Below, in pieces: positions 7,971 to 23,672 of a stretch of DNA of 27,194 nucleotides (positions are counted from its first letter, which is position 1; every line of letters starts with the position of its first letter). Source of the stretch: a virus. A model generated the notes under the pieces. That model did not search any database, had not been told where the DNA came from, and saw only the letters and a program-made list of their open reading frames with translations. Location of the stretch: positions 1 through 27,194 of the IMG/VR virus record IMGVR_UViG_3300043137_000288; one strand, written 5' to 3'. The translations under genes and the position numbers were made by a program.

Positions 7971-8696
7971 TCACCAAATGATATTTTTACCATCCATTTT
8001 AGTAATTTCTTCATTGATTTTGTTAAATATATCATTACAATCCCACTCTTGTTGCTTTTGATATGCAGCAGATGCAGGATGAGTTGCATATAGTTTAACA
8101 TGTTTGTCAGAAATTAGTTCTTCATACTCTTGCGCTTTCTTTCCTAAGAAAACAAAAATGACTGACTTATCCATAGAGTTTATCATGTCAAGTACATAAT
8201 TAGTAAAGGGTTCCCATATACTAAAATGTTTGCCAATCTTGCCAATTTCTGTTGTAAGAGAAGTATTTAGCATTAGAATACCTTGATTAGCCCATGGAGT
8301 TAAATCTGCAGATAAATCTTTTGCTTGTACTTTGTCTTGATAAACAGTTTTTGCAATTGCGTTATGGATATAACGTAGAGATGCTTCTTTCTTCATTGTG
8401 TTACCACATGAAAAAGAAATACCATCTGCCACATTTAATTGTGGATAGGGGTCTTGCCCTATAAATACCACTTTTAAGTCATTAGCAGGACATTCCTGAA
8501 AAGATCTAAACACTTGTTTTAAAGGAGGTGTAAAACGTTTATCATTTTCTACCTGATCTTTTAGAGCCAAGATGACCTTTTCAAAATCTTCAGACAGCAA
8601 AAATCCTTTTAGGACATTATGCCAACCTGATAATTTTAATGATTCTGCCAGCTTAAAACTGATATCTTTTGGATCAATAACAATTTTTTCTGCCAT
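7971..8696 (-). CDS. ung: Uracil-DNA glycosylase, family 1
   Basis: A 241-residue enzyme that cuts the bond between uracil and deoxyribose to begin base-excision repair. Family 1 signatures are present in order: VVFIGQDPYP (76-85, catalytic D82), LMLNTSLT (141-148, with the uracil-contacting N144), VFVFLGKKAQ, and the histidine loop HPASAAY (206-212, H206). The loop differs from the cellular HPSP form and the water-activating loop ends in Pro instead of His (GQDPYP). With dUTPase in the same genome, it would keep uracil out of phage DNA. The ATG sits in the context AAAAAAATGGC, with no Shine-Dalgarno sequence. Confidence 0.93.
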   Translation of the reverse strand: MAEKIVIDPKDISFKLAESLKLSGWHNVLKGFLLSEDFEKVILALKDQVENDKRFTPPLKQVFRSFQECPANDLKVVFIGQDPYPQLNVADGISFSCGNTMKKEASLRYIHNAIAKTVYQDKVQAKDLSADLTPWANQGILMLNTSLTTEIGKIGKHFSIWEPFTNYVLDMINSMDKSVIFVFLGKKAQEYEELISDKHVKLYATHPASAAYQKQQEWDCNDIFNKINEEITKMDGKNIIW

Positions 8697-17857: not shown

Positions 17858-18715
17858 TTAAAAAATGTATCTAATTTTATTCCAAGGAATAATTTCATCA
17901 TGAAGGTTTGTAAACTCTTCTATGTACTGTGATTTCAAACCATGCTTATAGCGTAGATTTAATCCTCCATACTGAGATACTTTGTCTTCTTGAATAGAAG
18001 GATTCCATAACAAGTCTTCACCAGTTAAGTTATTTTCTAAATTGTAAAAGTGTTTGTCACGATTATGTGTTAAGAATATAACCTCAGCTTTAACTTGGTC
18101 TTTGTACTTTCTATCTACAAGAGCATCTACACCTTCAAAAAGCAGTCTATACTGTTCTAACCAATCATCTGTAACAATTACAGGTGAAAAGTTGATATGT
18201 ACATCATATCCAGCTTCAATAAAATGATTAATAGCTTTAATTCTATCAATAATTTTAGTTGTGTTTGGTTCTAGTAAATCTGCATACTTCTGAGGCATCA
18301 ATGAAAATCTTATACGTATCTTTTTTTCTGGATTGTACGTAAGAAGTTCATCATTTACATACTTTGTTGCAAATGAACCCATTGCAATTTCACTTTGCTT
18401 AAAAAAGTCAAAAATGTACTGCCATCTGTGATATTTAAGATGTAAAGCAAAGTCTTCATTGCATGATATGTCATAAGTAACAAACTTTTCATGAGTTTGA
18501 TTAGGTTTATTTACAGTAGAAAACCAGCTATGATTGTTGATTTCTGTAAGAATTTCACTGGTGTTTTTTGCTATATCTAAACCTTCTGGTTTATGACGCT
18601 TCATGTAACAATAAGTGCAATTAAATAAACAGCCATGACCAAAACTAGGTGATATAAAATCAGTACTTCTACCACTTTCTCTAATAACCATTGATTTTCT
18701 TACAACTTGTTCCAT
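17858..18715 (-). CDS. Radical SAM protein, spore photoproduct lyase-like
   Basis: A 285-residue radical SAM protein. The 4Fe-4S cluster motif is CLFNCTYC (C29, C33, C36), preceded by SPSFGHG and followed by YMKRHKPEG, as in SplB-type enzymes. SplB proteins repair the thymine dimer called spore photoproduct and keep a late catalytic cysteine about 43 residues after the cluster. C85 in ISCNEDFAL is 49 residues after C36 and is the only cysteine after the cluster, so it may be the equivalent. IRIRFSLMP (133-141) and GYDVHINFSPVIV (169-181) match core barrel strands. It is shorter than bacterial SplB (about 340) and could be a repair or modification enzyme of phage DNA. Radical SAM assignment is firm; the substrate is inferred. 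Confidence 0.85.
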   Translation of the reverse strand: MEQVVRKSMVIRESGRSTDFISPSFGHGCLFNCTYCYMKRHKPEGLDIAKNTSEILTEINNHSWFSTVNKPNQTHEKFVTYDISCNEDFALHLKYHRWQYIFDFFKQSEIAMGSFATKYVNDELLTYNPEKKIRIRFSLMPQKYADLLEPNTTKIIDRIKAINHFIEAGYDVHINFSPVIVTDDWLEQYRLLFEGVDALVDRKYKDQVKAEVIFLTHNRDKHFYNLENNLTGEDLLWNPSIQEDKVSQYGGLNLRYKHGLKSQYIEEFTNLHDEIIPWNKIRYIF

Positions 18716-18717
18716 GG

Positions 18718-19068
18718 TTATTCTTTTTCATTAAGCTTTACAATGTAGTTTTCCCAACCCATTTTCTTAGCAACAAATGCAATTCTAACACAATGATCTA
18801 CCATTGCACCAGTTTGTCCACCTGTTTCTTCTGGGTCATTTTCATGAAGACACATGTAATCAATTAATGGTCTAACAATTGCATCGTTGACTTTTACGCC
18901 ACCAGCACTTACTTTGTCACATAATTCTTGATGATCATCAAGGTACTCAACACCTCTTGTCACCATGCGTTGACATTCTAATTCATAATCACAAGGATTT
19001 GACTGATCTTCTGAAAAGCCACTTAAAAAGTCTCCCACAGGATACTTGTACTTTGATTCTGTTTTCAT
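18718..19068 (-). CDS. Conserved phage protein (GGQTGAMVDHC), unknown function
   Basis: A 116-residue protein whose C-terminal part, ETGGQTGAMVDHCVRIAFVA, then KKMGWENYI, is distinctive; I recall it in other phage and bacterial hypothetical proteins. The N-terminal part contains ELECQRMVTRGVEYLDDH. Cysteines are scattered (C26, C32, C49 and others). It ends two bases before the radical SAM start. Close coupling suggests a shared role, but there is no direct evidence. Upstream, 61 bases hold an inverted repeat and a possible 15-codon leader. Confidence 0.75.
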   Translation of the reverse strand: MKTESKYKYPVGDFLSGFSEDQSNPCDYELECQRMVTRGVEYLDDHQELCDKVSAGGVKVNDAIVRPLIDYMCLHENDPEETGGQTGAMVDHCVRIAFVAKKMGWENYIVKLNEKE

Positions 19069-19112
19069 AGTTCTTGTTGTTTAATTTGCATGAATTTTTC
19101 CAAATATTTCAT
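19065..19112 (-). CDS. Possible 15-codon leader peptide coupled to the next gene
   Basis: An ATG at 19112-19110 opens a frame of 15 codons (MKYLEKFMQIKQQEL) whose TGA overlaps the ATG of the 18718-19068 gene in an ATGA junction. Most of the real gene junctions in this window look like this, which is why I list it. The length is too small to exclude chance, and it starts inside an inverted repeat. Confidence 0.3.
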   Translation of the reverse strand: MKYLEKFMQIKQQEL

Positions 19113-19115
19113 GCA
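19087..19115. repeat. Inverted repeat TGCATGAA / TTCATGCA
   Basis: Eight paired bases (19087-19094 with 19108-19115) with a 13-base loop, in the 61-base gap upstream of the 18718-19068 gene. No T tract follows on either strand, so it is more likely a regulator site or RNA hairpin than a terminator. Confidence 0.5.
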
Positions 19116-19129
19116 GAATTGTTCAATAA

Positions 19130-19369
19130 TTAATAATAAATAAACCCTAATTGAAATTGGGCAAGTCTTGTGTCATCTTCATGACTTGATAAACCAAGTG
19201 ATATACTTTCACCATTACAAGTGCATGTAGGATTACCTTCTTCATTTAATCCAAAATAAATAAAACCTGCACTAATTGGACTCATGTGTTTAAAATCACT
19301 GTGCAACATAATTTCACCAAAAACAATAATTTCTTTGTCTTTGGTTTTGATGTACTTTGCTTTTGCCAT
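19130..19369 (-). CDS. Small conserved protein (MAKAKYIKTKDKEIIVF family), unknown function
   Basis: A 79-residue protein that I recognise as a recurring but unnamed family: starts MAKAKYIKTKDKEIIVFGE, continues MLHSDFKHMSPISAGFIYF, then PTCTCNGESISLGLSS (C49, C51) and ends with DTRLAQFQLGF. It looks like a compact beta-rich domain. It lies 21 bases past the tRNA-like sequence and is read in the same direction. I know no function for the family. Confidence 0.78.
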   Translation of the reverse strand: MAKAKYIKTKDKEIIVFGEIMLHSDFKHMSPISAGFIYFGLNEEGNPTCTCNGESISLGLSSHEDDTRLAQFQLGFIYY

Positions 19370-19390
19370 TTGTTTGTTTTTTAAAATTAG

Positions 19391-19456
19391 AAGTCAGGCA
19401 AGGACTTGAACCTTATCCGCTTTATCAGTGCGGTGCTTCCATTCAGCTACCTGACT
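19391..19456 (-). tRNA. Abbreviated tRNA-Ile(GAU)-like sequence
   Basis: Read on the minus strand, the region folds into a cloverleaf: a 7-pair acceptor stem AGTCAGG/CCTGACT, then canonical T8-A9, and a 3-pair D stem GCT/AGC with GG in the loop. The anticodon arm is CCGCA/AGCGG (one A-A mismatch) with loop CTGATAA and anticodon GAT (Ile). The T arm is TAAGG/CCTTG with the canonical loop TTCAAGT. The variable region is one base long and the D loop is short, so the total is about 66 bases instead of about 74. CCA is not encoded. It could be a working minimal tRNA, a decayed gene or a tRNA mimic. Confidence 0.65.
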
Positions 19457-19530
19457 ATGTTGCTTGTCTTTCCAAGCTGTCACGATTTTGCTAGTGTCAG
19501 ACAATTGTTTTGCCTCTCATTACCTCACTA
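19457..19530 (-). other. Non-coding stretch with hairpins upstream of the tRNA-like sequence
   Basis: This stretch has no ORF of useful length. On the minus strand it contains GCTTG/CAAGC (loop GAAAGA) and CTAGTG/CACTAG (29-base loop), the latter beginning at the TAG stop of the upstream gene. Together with the tRNA-like element it makes the largest gene-free transcribed segment here (about 160 bases). I see no second tRNA: no T-loop consensus is present. Confidence 0.4.
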
Positions 19531-19776
19531 GTTTTGGGGAGTGCCTACCTGATTACTCACATCCATTCCGCCTTGCAGGGGAAAATTTCTTTGTTTCATC
19601 TCTTCTTCTAGGGATTGATCTGGACTATAAACTTTAGAACATTTTCCACAAATGTGAAACTCTCCATCTTTTGTCCATTTATTGACAAATTCACCTTCTT
19701 TTATGTAAGGCTTGCATGTTTTACAATTACATGCGTTTGCTGTGCCACAATGTGGACAATGAAAGGCTCCCATCAT
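19528..19776 (-). CDS. Zinc-ribbon protein
   Basis: An 82-residue protein with dense metal-binding cysteines: CPHCGTANACNCKTC (C7, C10, C16, C18, C21) and later ICGKC (C43, C46). This suggests one or two zinc ribbons in a protein of the transcription or nucleic-acid binding type. The rest is polar and low in hydrophobics. It uses a TAG stop and overlaps the Tudor-like gene by an ATGATG junction, so the pair may be co-expressed and act together. No enzyme motif is seen. Confidence 0.72.
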   Translation of the reverse strand: MMGAFHCPHCGTANACNCKTCKPYIKEGEFVNKWTKDGEFHICGKCSKVYSPDQSLEEEMKQRNFPLQGGMDVSNQVGTPQN

Positions 19777-20450: not shown

Positions 20451-22328
20451 TTAGATTGTTATTTTTTCTTTGATAAGTTTATCAACTTTCTTAGACATGT
20501 AATTTACTAAATCTTTTGGAAGATTTTTGATATCTGTCATCTGGATAAAGTAGTCAAACATCTCTTTAGAAGGAACATGTTCTTCAATTGCAATCTGAAT
20601 AACTTGGAAACCTAGTGACTGAGCACGCGTAACTTTTTTACGTGTATCATCAATTGCACTACGTCCTCCATATCCAGATGCACTTGGAGCACCATCTGAT
20701 AATACAATAAGTAAACCTTGATTTTCTGTTTGACCACGCATACGTCTAGCTGCAGCAAATATAGCATCACCGTCTCTATTGTTTGCATGTGCTTCAACAG
20801 AACCAAGAGAAAAAGAATCTGTTATGTATCCTTTTTCACGGTAAACTGTCATATCAACAGAATCTCTACCATTTGTATCAGCAGTGTGACCATAGATAAA
20901 CAATTCTACATCAGGCATTTTCTTGAAAACTTCATTGATAAAAATTGCAGCTTCTCTTGCTTTTTGAATTTTAGAACCTCCCATAGATCCAGACTCATCA
21001 ATAAGAACACCAACACAAACTTTGCTTGTTGTTACTTGACCAAATCTTTCATAAATAGTAGGAACTTGTTGAGCAGCTTCTGCAATCTTATTAGTATCCA
21101 AACGTCCTGAACGCATAGATTTCATGCTAAACTCATAGTTTTTACTCTTGCGAGAAAACAACTTTTGTAACACAGCAGCTTTTGTTGTGTCAATTTTAGT
21201 TATAGCATCTCTATATCTATCTTTAGAACGTGTGTTTACTTCAGCTTTCTTCCAGTAAACATTTCCTTGAGAAGTTTCACCTTCATCATCCCAGTTGAAA
21301 TCTGATTTTGGTGGACTTGGAGCAGTTTCAGACATATCATCTACAAAATCTTCAAACTCACCACTAAAATCTTCACCACCAGGAGAGCCTTCTTCAGGAT
21401 TAATCAATGCAGCCATCATATCTTTAGCAACATCATTAAGTTCTGCTTTAGACATTTCAGGAGTTGCTTTACTTGGTGCACCAGTTCCTTCAGATTCACC
21501 TTCATCAGATTCATCTTCACCTGATCCACCACCTCCAGGAGGTTCTTCTTCCTTTTCAGTATATTTGTATACAATGTTTGATAAACTTGTTGCCATACTA
21601 GCACAGCTATCATAATCACTTGGTATACCACCATGCTTCTTAAGAATACGCTCCATTGACTTCAAAGGTTCAGCAAAATCTTCCATGTCTTCTTCAGAAA
21701 TATTAGCTGGATAGCGTAACATTTTTACCACAAGATCAAGTAAGCGTTTTTGCTTTGGTTCTTCTACGCCAGGTCCTTCATAGTTTTCAAATCTATGTTC
21801 TTTGTATTTTTGTACAAACTTCAAATAACCAGGAAGACGGTCTGCAAGTTTCTTGTCAATACGTTCTGTGTTTAATACACTTGTAATCAAGTCTTTAACA
21901 CTGACTCCTTTTGAAGTGTCACGCATTAACATGGTCTTATTGTATTCTTGTGTTGTCTGCATTGTTGCAAGAGCAGCATTTTGAATAGCAGCACCATAAA
22001 AAGCATCTAATAGCTTCTCATCTCTGTCAAGGTATTTACCATTTTCATCTCTAAGCATGCTTAAAGGTACTTGAACTTTAGGATCTGTATAACCTCTTTT
22101 AGATGTTTGTATATCATTAGAGTACTTAAATGTTTTAGGCACACCAATAACTCTAAACATAGAGCCAATCATTTTAGAAGCTTCCTTCAGTGAGTTGTCA
22201 TTTCTGATAAAGTATGAAGAGTATGAACTCCTATCTTTATCCCAGTTGAAGAAACGTTTTGATTCATCATTGAATGTATACGCGTCTTCAGCTCTTCTGT
22301 TAAACCAGTCTTTTACTAATTTGCTCAT
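20451..22328 (-). CDS. VWA-domain protein, CobT-like partner of a MoxR ATPase
   Basis: A 625-residue protein, the largest complete gene here. An N-terminal helical region (1-255) is followed by a very acidic, Gly-rich linker (EEPPGGGGSGEDESDEGES, about 262-350) and a C-terminal von Willebrand factor A domain. The MIDAS motif is DESGSMG (444-450), with further strands LIVLSDGAPSA. The layout resembles cobaltochelatase subunit CobT, NorD and other proteins that work with MoxR AAA+ ATPases, where the VWA partner recruits a substrate. A MoxR-type gene lies directly upstream, so the two very likely form a complex. A plus-strand ORF over the acidic linker (21295-21615) is an artefact of its composition. 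Confidence 0.85.
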   Translation of the reverse strand: MSKLVKDWFNRRAEDAYTFNDESKRFFNWDKDRSSYSSYFIRNDNSLKEASKMIGSMFRVIGVPKTFKYSNDIQTSKRGYTDPKVQVPLSMLRDENGKYLDRDEKLLDAFYGAAIQNAALATMQTTQEYNKTMLMRDTSKGVSVKDLITSVLNTERIDKKLADRLPGYLKFVQKYKEHRFENYEGPGVEEPKQKRLLDLVVKMLRYPANISEEDMEDFAEPLKSMERILKKHGGIPSDYDSCASMATSLSNIVYKYTEKEEEPPGGGGSGEDESDEGESEGTGAPSKATPEMSKAELNDVAKDMMAALINPEEGSPGGEDFSGEFEDFVDDMSETAPSPPKSDFNWDDEGETSQGNVYWKKAEVNTRSKDRYRDAITKIDTTKAAVLQKLFSRKSKNYEFSMKSMRSGRLDTNKIAEAAQQVPTIYERFGQVTTSKVCVGVLIDESGSMGGSKIQKAREAAIFINEVFKKMPDVELFIYGHTADTNGRDSVDMTVYREKGYITDSFSLGSVEAHANNRDGDAIFAAARRMRGQTENQGLLIVLSDGAPSASGYGGRSAIDDTRKKVTRAQSLGFQVIQIAIEEHVPSKEMFDYFIQMTDIKNLPKDLVNYMSKKVDKLIKEKITI

Positions 22329-22340
22329 ATGAATGTATTT

Positions 22341-22370
22341 AAAAAAAGAGGGAGTATTTCATCCCTCTTT
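22341..22370 (-). terminator. Rho-independent terminator between MoxR and VWA genes
   Basis: In minus orientation AAAGAGGGA pairs with TCCCTCTTT over nine bases with an 8-base loop, and the following run gives seven T. It lies 16 bases past the stop of the ATPase gene and 13 bases before the start of the VWA gene. Confidence 0.88.
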
Positions 22371-22385
22371 ATAATTTTGGTATGC

Positions 22386-23672
22386 TTAAAAAGCAGAAAC
22401 AATAGAAAGTACTTTGCTACGCTCAGATACACCAATTCCATCTTCAAACAATGGCATAATAGTAGCAAGCAAAGCTTTATCTACATCAAAACCATCTGCA
22501 ATAAGACTTGCAGCTTGAAGTGTGTGACGAACAGAAACAGCTGTTGAAAGTTCTTGCTCTTTGTATTGTTTACGTATCTCATTGGATACACGCACAATTG
22601 CAGTTGCAAACTTTTCATCAATTCCTGTACGTAACTTGATAATGTTTACCTCATCTTTTTCAATTGGGTAATCAAGTTCTATAGGAAAGAATCTATCTAA
22701 CAATGCACGGTCAATTGAATGAGTACCTGAATACTCAGAACCAAGATTAGCGGTTGCAAAGAACACAGTGTTCTCATTAACAGCAATCCTACGATCACAA
22801 TCTTCACATGCAATATCTACTGGTAAGTAACGTCTTTTATCCAAACATGGAAACAAGATATTATTTGCAGCAAGAGGTGAACGGTTCAACTCATCCAATA
22901 ACATAATACCACCAGCTTGAATATTATTTACAAAAGGTGCAAACTCAAATGATGAGTGACCTTCATTGTTCAAACGGTGAACGCCAAGTAATGCTGATTG
23001 AGCATCTTGAACAGTACCCATGTCTTGGATGTACATGTTTCTTTCCATTGCAAGTGCAAGGTGAGATACAATTTCTGTTTTACCAGAACCTGTTGGCCCT
23101 ATAAGCAAAGTATTCTCTCCTCTCAATACATTTCTCACAAGTAAGAACCACATGTCAGGATCAATGTGAAAACCACAGTCTTCAACAGATGGAACAGGAT
23201 AGTTAGCTGCAATAGTACGTTTAAGATTTGTTCCAGAAGGAATTTCACCTGCAACAGTTGGTTTTGGAGCTATCATTGCATCCCAGTCATATTCATAACC
23301 ATAAGATGCAAACTGTTCTGCCATTGCTTTTGCTTTTTCAATGCCATATAACTCACTGTCAATCATATAATTAACAGTAAAATCAGCCATTTCTTGTAAA
23401 CGCATTTTATCTACATGAGCCAATGGAAAAACTGTGCTATCATAAAACATAGCAACAACATTCTCTTTGCGAATGTGTAAATGGTCATCTTCTGGAAAAT
23501 CATATCCATCAGTGATGAATATTGTTCCTAAAGGATACTTTGCAAACTCAGCAATTGGAGATGTAATTTTCATGTCGTCCATGTGACGTGTCAAAGTTTT
23601 CTCAAAAGATTGTTTAGGTAGAGTCTTAACTTGGTAGCTTGTGCCGCTGATAATTGATTGTAATAAAATCAT
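22386..23672 (-). CDS. MoxR/CobS-type AAA+ ATPase
   Basis: A 428-residue protein. The N-terminal 150 residues have no familiar motif and include two clusters of His, Asp and Glu (YDFPEDDHLHIRKENVVA). The AAA+ module has Walker A GPTGSGKT (192-199), Walker B LLDELNR (258-264), sensor 1 in FATANLG (N309) and the arginine finger region RALLDRF (322-328). The pattern FPIELDYP after the AAA+ core is typical of MoxR and CobS. MoxR ATPases act as chaperones that remodel or load a protein complex through a VWA partner, encoded just downstream here. The strong terminator between them suggests that the two are made in different amounts. Confidence 0.88.
   Translation of the reverse strand: MILLQSIISGTSYQVKTLPKQSFEKTLTRHMDDMKITSPIAEFAKYPLGTIFITDGYDFPEDDHLHIRKENVVAMFYDSTVFPLAHVDKMRLQEMADFTVNYMIDSELYGIEKAKAMAEQFASYGYEYDWDAMIAPKPTVAGEIPSGTNLKRTIAANYPVPSVEDCGFHIDPDMWFLLVRNVLRGENTLLIGPTGSGKTEIVSHLALAMERNMYIQDMGTVQDAQSALLGVHRLNNEGHSSFEFAPFVNNIQAGGIMLLDELNRSPLAANNILFPCLDKRRYLPVDIACEDCDRRIAVNENTVFFATANLGSEYSGTHSIDRALLDRFFPIELDYPIEKDEVNIIKLRTGIDEKFATAIVRVSNEIRKQYKEQELSTAVSVRHTLQAASLIADGFDVDKALLATIMPLFEDGIGVSERSKVLSIVSAF

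Follow-up and report, generated by a model that had tools for sequence, protein, structure and literature searches.

We analysed a window of 27,194 bases, i.e. a whole virus record, in which an open reading frame (ORF) beginning with ATG and encoding 285 amino acids was found on the minus strand at positions 17858-18715, as the preliminary description had it. The following features were distinguished at this locus:

17858..18715, minus strand: viral radical SAM enzyme of the spore photoproduct lyase (SPL) family, 285 aa, without about 62 N-terminal residues of SplB (Pfam, NCBIfam, phmmer, AF2 model and superposition)
18608..18631, minus strand: CX3CX2C cluster motif C29-LFN-C33-TY-C36, including Y35 (SplB Y97) (sequence and alignment)
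18605..18607, minus strand: codon of Y37, counterpart of the radical-relay Y99 of B. subtilis (alignment; function according to the available part of PMC3742179)
18461..18463, minus strand: codon of C85, counterpart of the hydrogen-donor C141 of B. subtilis and C140 of G. thermodenitrificans (alignments)
18362..18364, minus strand: codon of K118 (SplB K175) (alignment)
18302..18304, minus strand: codon of S138 (SplB S196), in an RFS motif (alignment)
17969..17974, minus strand: codons of Q248-Y249, opposite R305-Y306 of the SplB C-terminal hairpin, with Arg replaced by Gln (alignment)
18718..19068, minus strand: upstream neighbour gene, 116 aa, 2 bases from the SPL gene, found in a minority of viral loci (ORF list)

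What had been claimed for the protein sequence was borne out. The SPSFGHG lead-in and the subsequent CLFNCTYC motif are both present, and the protein contains exactly four cysteines (29, 33, 36 and 85), so that C85 is indeed the single one beyond the cluster motif. It lies at about the distance where SplB keeps its hydrogen donor, the spacing from C29 being 56 residues vs 50 in SplB. The open frame spans 289 codons, four of them ahead of the ATG; the N-terminus can thus be extended by four codons at most, and SPL residues 1-62 are absent.

In Pfam, the protein belongs to the SPL family (PF20903; 84.2 bits against a gathering cut-off of 27, 1.1e-23). The best-scoring NCBIfam family was TIGR03886 (7e-93; profile positions 62-346 of 346), whose equivalog cut-off was missed (311.5 vs 437.55 bits), about 61 N-terminal profile positions being uncovered. 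The spore photoproduct lyase equivalog TIGR04070 also scored below its cut-off (9.5e-23; 80.7 vs 400 bits). None of the 16 records scored passed the TIGR03886 cut-off, and all 82 members of our 82-sequence alignment matched both TIGR03886 and the SPL model TIGR04070. Among solved structures, phmmer with the single sequence retrieved GtSPL at 3.6e-8, and a 17-member profile reached SPL at 3.4e-18, all strong matches being SPL entries. Judged by these scores, the homology of the protein to SPL is far beyond chance.

The AF2 model built from the 82 sequences (pLDDT 96.0, pTM 0.92) led to the same family. The preliminary description had suggested superposing a predicted structure on bacterial SplB; in VIA-align, model residues 1-285 were placed on residues 63-341 of the chain of 4fhf, GtSPL with a bound dinucleoside spore photoproduct, with Z 30.9 and rmsd 2.0 Å over 275 residues. 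According to this superposition, the window protein starts at about SPL residue 63. Six SPL entries were matched at Z 30.6-30.9 (2.0 Å, 274-275 residues) and the next family at Z 14.1, while the RNA methylating enzyme RlmN reached Z 13.7 vs 30.9 for SPL, and no RNA methylase appeared near the top of the NCBIfam matches. A Foldseek search with this model agreed on SPL. Another AF2 model, from 17 sequences, was dropped for its pLDDT below 50 over most of residues 1-44; Foldseek gave SPL there as well. In BFVD, which comprises predicted viral proteins, the best match had TM 0.65 at 14% identity, hence no close SPL was evident in that collection. Neither the NCBIfam profiles nor the structure search offered a radical SAM family that fits better. 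The window protein fits the SPL kind by fold and catalytic set; it lacks the N-terminal part and the hairpin arginine, and scores below the two equivalog cut-offs.

For residue mapping we used SplB of Bacillus velezensis (342 aa), in which the cluster and donor cysteines are numbered as in B. subtilis. In the alignment, SplB C91, C95, Y97, C98, Y99, C141, K175 and S196 correspond to C29, C33, Y35, C36, Y37, C85, K118 and S138, respectively, and in the phmmer alignment C85 stands opposite the cysteine of 4fhc and the alanine of the C140A mutant entry 4fhe. Outside this set, SplB S143 is replaced by E87 and hairpin R305 by Q248, and Y306 is kept as Y249. The equivalent hairpin of G. thermodenitrificans SPL, Arg304-Tyr305, takes part in contacting the lesion. 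Since the hairpin Arg is Gln and S143 is Glu, lesion recognition by the viral SPL may differ from that of SplB. As for the reaction itself, in the available part of PMC3742179 the hydrogen donor of SPL is C141, and Y99 and Y97 belong to the radical chain. Taken together, the alignments and the predicted fold make SPL-type chemistry of the viral protein well supported, with C85 as the counterpart of the hydrogen-donor cysteine, as had been proposed for this phage-borne enzyme.

The same residues recur in related viruses. We read 252 viral loci, which represented 179 distinct sequences; L071, with no open motif frame, was excluded from the set of 80 proteins, and eight weak genome-search loci (L168-L175) yielded no protein. 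The eight SPL reaction residues were conserved in all 81 viral representatives, save Y37, which was present in 80. C85 was found in 178 of the 179 distinct sequences, the remaining one being truncated, the CX3CX2C spacing in 172 and the hairpin tyrosine in 169. Threonine takes the place of Y37, the Y99 counterpart after the third cluster cysteine, in two (L046, L147). Conservation of the cluster cysteines and tyrosine is biased by retrieval, as the search patterns of two scans held parts of the cluster motif; C85 was outside the patterns of those two scans and is included in one pattern of the 18-locus scan. Some variation occurs within the cluster: three viral proteins (L109, L112, L154) have one more residue between cysteines 1 and 2, and two others (L185, L188), along with L082, L159, L294 and L295, have CX3CX4C instead of CX3CX2C (CLGGCRNSYC, CNAGCSNSYC).

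The four IMG/VR scans returned 156, at least 591, 18 and 284 relatives in overlapping sets. Viral SPLs are common in uncultured viruses, probably those of Bacteroidota. At the same time, tblastn with the window protein gave no match at 1e-5 among 50,697 deposited phage records, in which the long Bacteroidota form had one distant match (22.7% identity). Relative to the window, dN/dS was 0.02-0.17 wherever computable among the 40 of 80 pairs listed, i.e. the viral SPL is under purifying selection. The median GC content of the viral loci was 0.313. Phages of Bacteroidota are AT-rich anyway, and for this reason the composition was not counted as evidence.

Conservation of C85, proposed beforehand as a check on the assignment, held for every readable viral relative and failed for many bacterial TIGR03886 proteins. 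Among 14 of 19 plasmid records sampled, 11 encoded TIGR03886-type proteins (L277-L280, L285-L291; three from Deinococcus, five from Alphaproteobacteria, three from Actinomycetota) and three SplB-like ones; in all 11 of the former the C141 position is glutamate (YD[IL]GEN.D). Of 13 distinct Bacteroidota genes, 12 have cysteine there and one glutamate. The virus keeps a cysteine that is gone from much of the family it matches best, and we regard this as the best indication that its chemistry resembles that of SplB and is more than an inheritance. The shared name "spore photoproduct lyase family" may hide a different reaction in the proteins with glutamate.

Cysteine-type homologues in Bacteroidota comprise long (L157, L158) and short forms (L082 from Cesiribacter, L159); the latter lack the N-terminus, as the virus does. 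Unlike the viral genes, these homologues look chromosomal by their neighbours (those of two short cellular forms), and the short ones have CX3CX4C, not CX3CX2C. Such genes appear infrequent: a strong TIGR03886 match was present in four of 395 Bacteroidota genomes, two of them above the cut-off, and in one family 10 of 196 genomes matched the viral profile at 1e-20. In a tree of 95 rows, whose bootstrap was not fully settled, one clade (83 rows, 100/99) unites the Bacteroidota long forms with 79 short forms from viruses and two from Bacteroidota. Nested in it, the short forms are a clade of their own (81 rows, 100/100), in which 76 viral rows again group together (99/98). Two viral long forms fall outside the clade, and the SplB type stands apart (100/100). 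Most simply, a cysteine-type SPL would have passed from Bacteroidota to viruses, a direction that we infer, and the N-terminus would have disappeared.

Compared with SplB of B. subtilis and G. thermodenitrificans, the viral protein shares the fold, CX3CX2C and the counterparts of Y97/Y99, the donor cysteine, K175 and S196, and differs in sequence (about 18% identity), in the lack of residues 1-62, in Gln248 in place of Arg305, and in being virus-encoded among replication genes. Its best-scoring family is that of non-sporulating bacteria (Deinococcus, Alphaproteobacteria, Actinomycetota), and Gln of the virus at the hairpin position is paralleled by Gln or Glu in six aligned cellular long forms of TIGR03886. 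The short N-terminus, the score below cut-off and the donor cysteine set it apart from that family.

The SPL gene sits in a replication and nucleotide-repair region. The window encodes a DnaB-type helicase, a Sak4-like protein, a uracil-DNA glycosylase (UDG), a dUTPase, a ResIII-type helicase, a DnaG-like zinc ribbon and a GIY-YIG nuclease, together with a CobS/CobT-like pair of AAA and VWA proteins. In this pair (20451-23672), the VWA/CobT-like protein adjoins the CobS/CbbQ-like AAA ATPase; the PHROG matched by the latter is named "porphyrin biosynthesis", but the two resemble a MoxR/VWA pair. The UDG-family protein (7971-8696) matches phrog_12143, a PHROG of unknown function, at 1.9e-43.

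As for the immediate neighbours, two attributions of the preliminary description had to be given up. The adjacent "DUF-like" gene is the 116-aa gene, which had no match to any Pfam or PHROG family. The "UvrD-type Tudor gene" at 1.6 kb is a 60-aa ORF 1.06 kb away (18715 to 19773), with a match to the Tudor model below cut-off (16.6 vs 23.9 bits), and was present in just two of the viral loci compared. Both were rejected as functional partners, given their weak or missing family matches and the minority of loci in which they occur. Neighbour clustering over 114 distinct loci revealed no general partner gene: the commonest family, a helicase, was found in 27, followed by a gene that by eye appeared to encode a DNA-binding protein (21), a small gene (18), and VWA/CobT-like and UDG-like genes (17 each). 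Among 15 long carrier contigs, which may be incomplete, UDG was matched in four, and photolyase (PF03441), UVDE and Pyr_excise, the T4-type dimer glycosylase (PF03013), in none.

A Bacteroidota host of the window virus, assumed from the outset, is likely by its replication genes. Sak4 matched 38 records, 29 of them from uncultured phages, those listed being faecal cr phages, and the helicase gene matched 81, including 29 Flavobacterium and 29 Bacteroides phages. The DnaB gene matched 430 records over many hosts, the best of those listed being from faecal cr phages, which we take to be "crAss-like". The AAA gene matched 68, mainly Mycobacterium and Gordonia by count, the best named match being a Bacteroides phage. 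Promoters lent the host assignment no support: the -33/-7 pattern, a Bacteroidota promoter motif, occurred five times vs 2.77 expected, and 18 of 100 shuffles scored as high.

Our preferred reading, to which we assign a probability of roughly 60%, is that the gene encodes a functional, N-terminally short viral SPL that, at infection, directly reverses thymine lesions of the spore photoproduct type in phage DNA. We infer the lesion, the timing and virion DNA as the substrate. The enzyme would act on the viral genome as it enters the cell, after sunlight had damaged its thymines inside the capsid, where the DNA would be dense and in part dehydrated. After infection the viral SPL would be made and bind a [4Fe-4S] cluster via C29, C33 and C36; SAM would be cleaved to the 5'-deoxyadenosyl radical, the lesion would split, and C85 would give a hydrogen back to the thymine methyl radical. 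Y37, together with Y35, would then pass the thiyl radical back, with SAM regenerated, following the reaction scheme in the available part of PMC3742179.

The preliminary description reasoned that the absence of sporulation implies another substrate, or modification of bases or tRNA. This finds no support, as the catalytic set is intact and formation of spore photoproduct is described outside spores as well, in dry or A-form DNA (PMC3231322 and PMC12029717, as far as available). DNA in capsids is dense and poorly hydrated, and virions are for that reason a plausible source of spore photoproduct. The available text of PMC12029717 also cites a desiccation-driven B-to-A transition and the occurrence of spore photoproduct in organisms that form no spores, and reports that UV induces an SPL family gene in Curtobacterium. 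Furthermore, LexA control was predicted for splB of alpha- and beta-proteobacteria (PMC3323433) and SplB-like enzymes were tied to SOS operons (PMC3765255), both according to the parts available. Our literature search found no report of spore photoproduct in phage particles. Counting against the preferred reading are the two missed equivalog cut-offs, the absence of about 62 N-terminal residues, the replacement of the hairpin Arg and of S143, and the lack of a conserved partner gene. Moreover, with dimer-repair matches in 0 of 15 carrier contigs, these viruses would repair the rarer lesion and not the commoner dimers.

The nearest competitor, which we consider rather unlikely, would have the same SPL radical chemistry act, in the DNA of phage or host, on another thymine lesion or on a broader range of dimers, with the hairpin and the short N-terminus accounting for specificity. 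While the Arg-to-Gln and Ser-to-Glu replacements and the absent N-terminus would agree with this, and the cellular sister group, having swapped even the donor cysteine for glutamate, indicates that the SPL family does diversify, the virus has retained the residues of the spore photoproduct radical chain (PMC3742179, available part) and mostly the hairpin tyrosine. Next, it appears improbable that the enzyme is an auxiliary one, mainly protecting the infected host's DNA in sunlit water and not the incoming virus genome: hosts can use the same repair, as the cellular genes most closely related to it are chromosomal ones of Bacteroidota, but few sampled Bacteroidota carry a close relative, and the viral gene is placed among replication genes. 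Still less probable is a base- or tRNA-modifying enzyme instead of a repair enzyme. Many radical SAM enzymes are encoded by phages, yet the RlmN match is at the level of the general radical SAM fold, less than half the Z-score of SPL, and a thymidylate-synthase-family gene was present in only two of the 15 long carrier contigs, which does not point to a thymine-modification pathway in common. Finally, a decayed or inactive relic, to which the missing N-terminal region might point, is hardly credible given the low dN/dS in the pairs listed and catalytic residues that are near-invariant across the distinct viral sequences.

What our data suggest, under the preferred reading, is that virus DNA in its tight packing may be damaged in the manner of spore DNA and be repaired by the virus upon infection. 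Spore photoproduct has so far been regarded as damage to endospores and dried cells; given a conserved viral lineage that retains the whole catalytic set, DNA packed in capsids would be its third natural setting. Phage-encoded UV repair as such is represented by T4 endonuclease V (Pfam PF03013), an excision glycosylase without radical chemistry. No phage SPL was reported in the titles covered by our literature search, most subscription papers being outside its scope, and PMC10765411, as far as available, gives SPL for bacteria and lacks it in the examined part of its viral gene table. More tentatively, we can imagine a joint picture, which we hold possible though doubtful as a whole: DNA in capsids of Bacteroidota phages would form spore photoproduct in sunlight, a large and unnoticed viral SPL lineage would reverse the damage directly on infection, with need of neither light nor host photolyase, and the glutamate-type bacterial proteins would be a different enzyme. 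A single residue separates the cysteine-type SPLs of spore formers, Bacteroidota and viruses from the identically named glutamate type.

As a separate observation, both types occur next to each other on plasmid p546-2 of Roseomonas haemaphysalidis (L292:2299-4420), where an SPL gene of the Glu type and one of the Cys type share 11 bases, as if co-translated.
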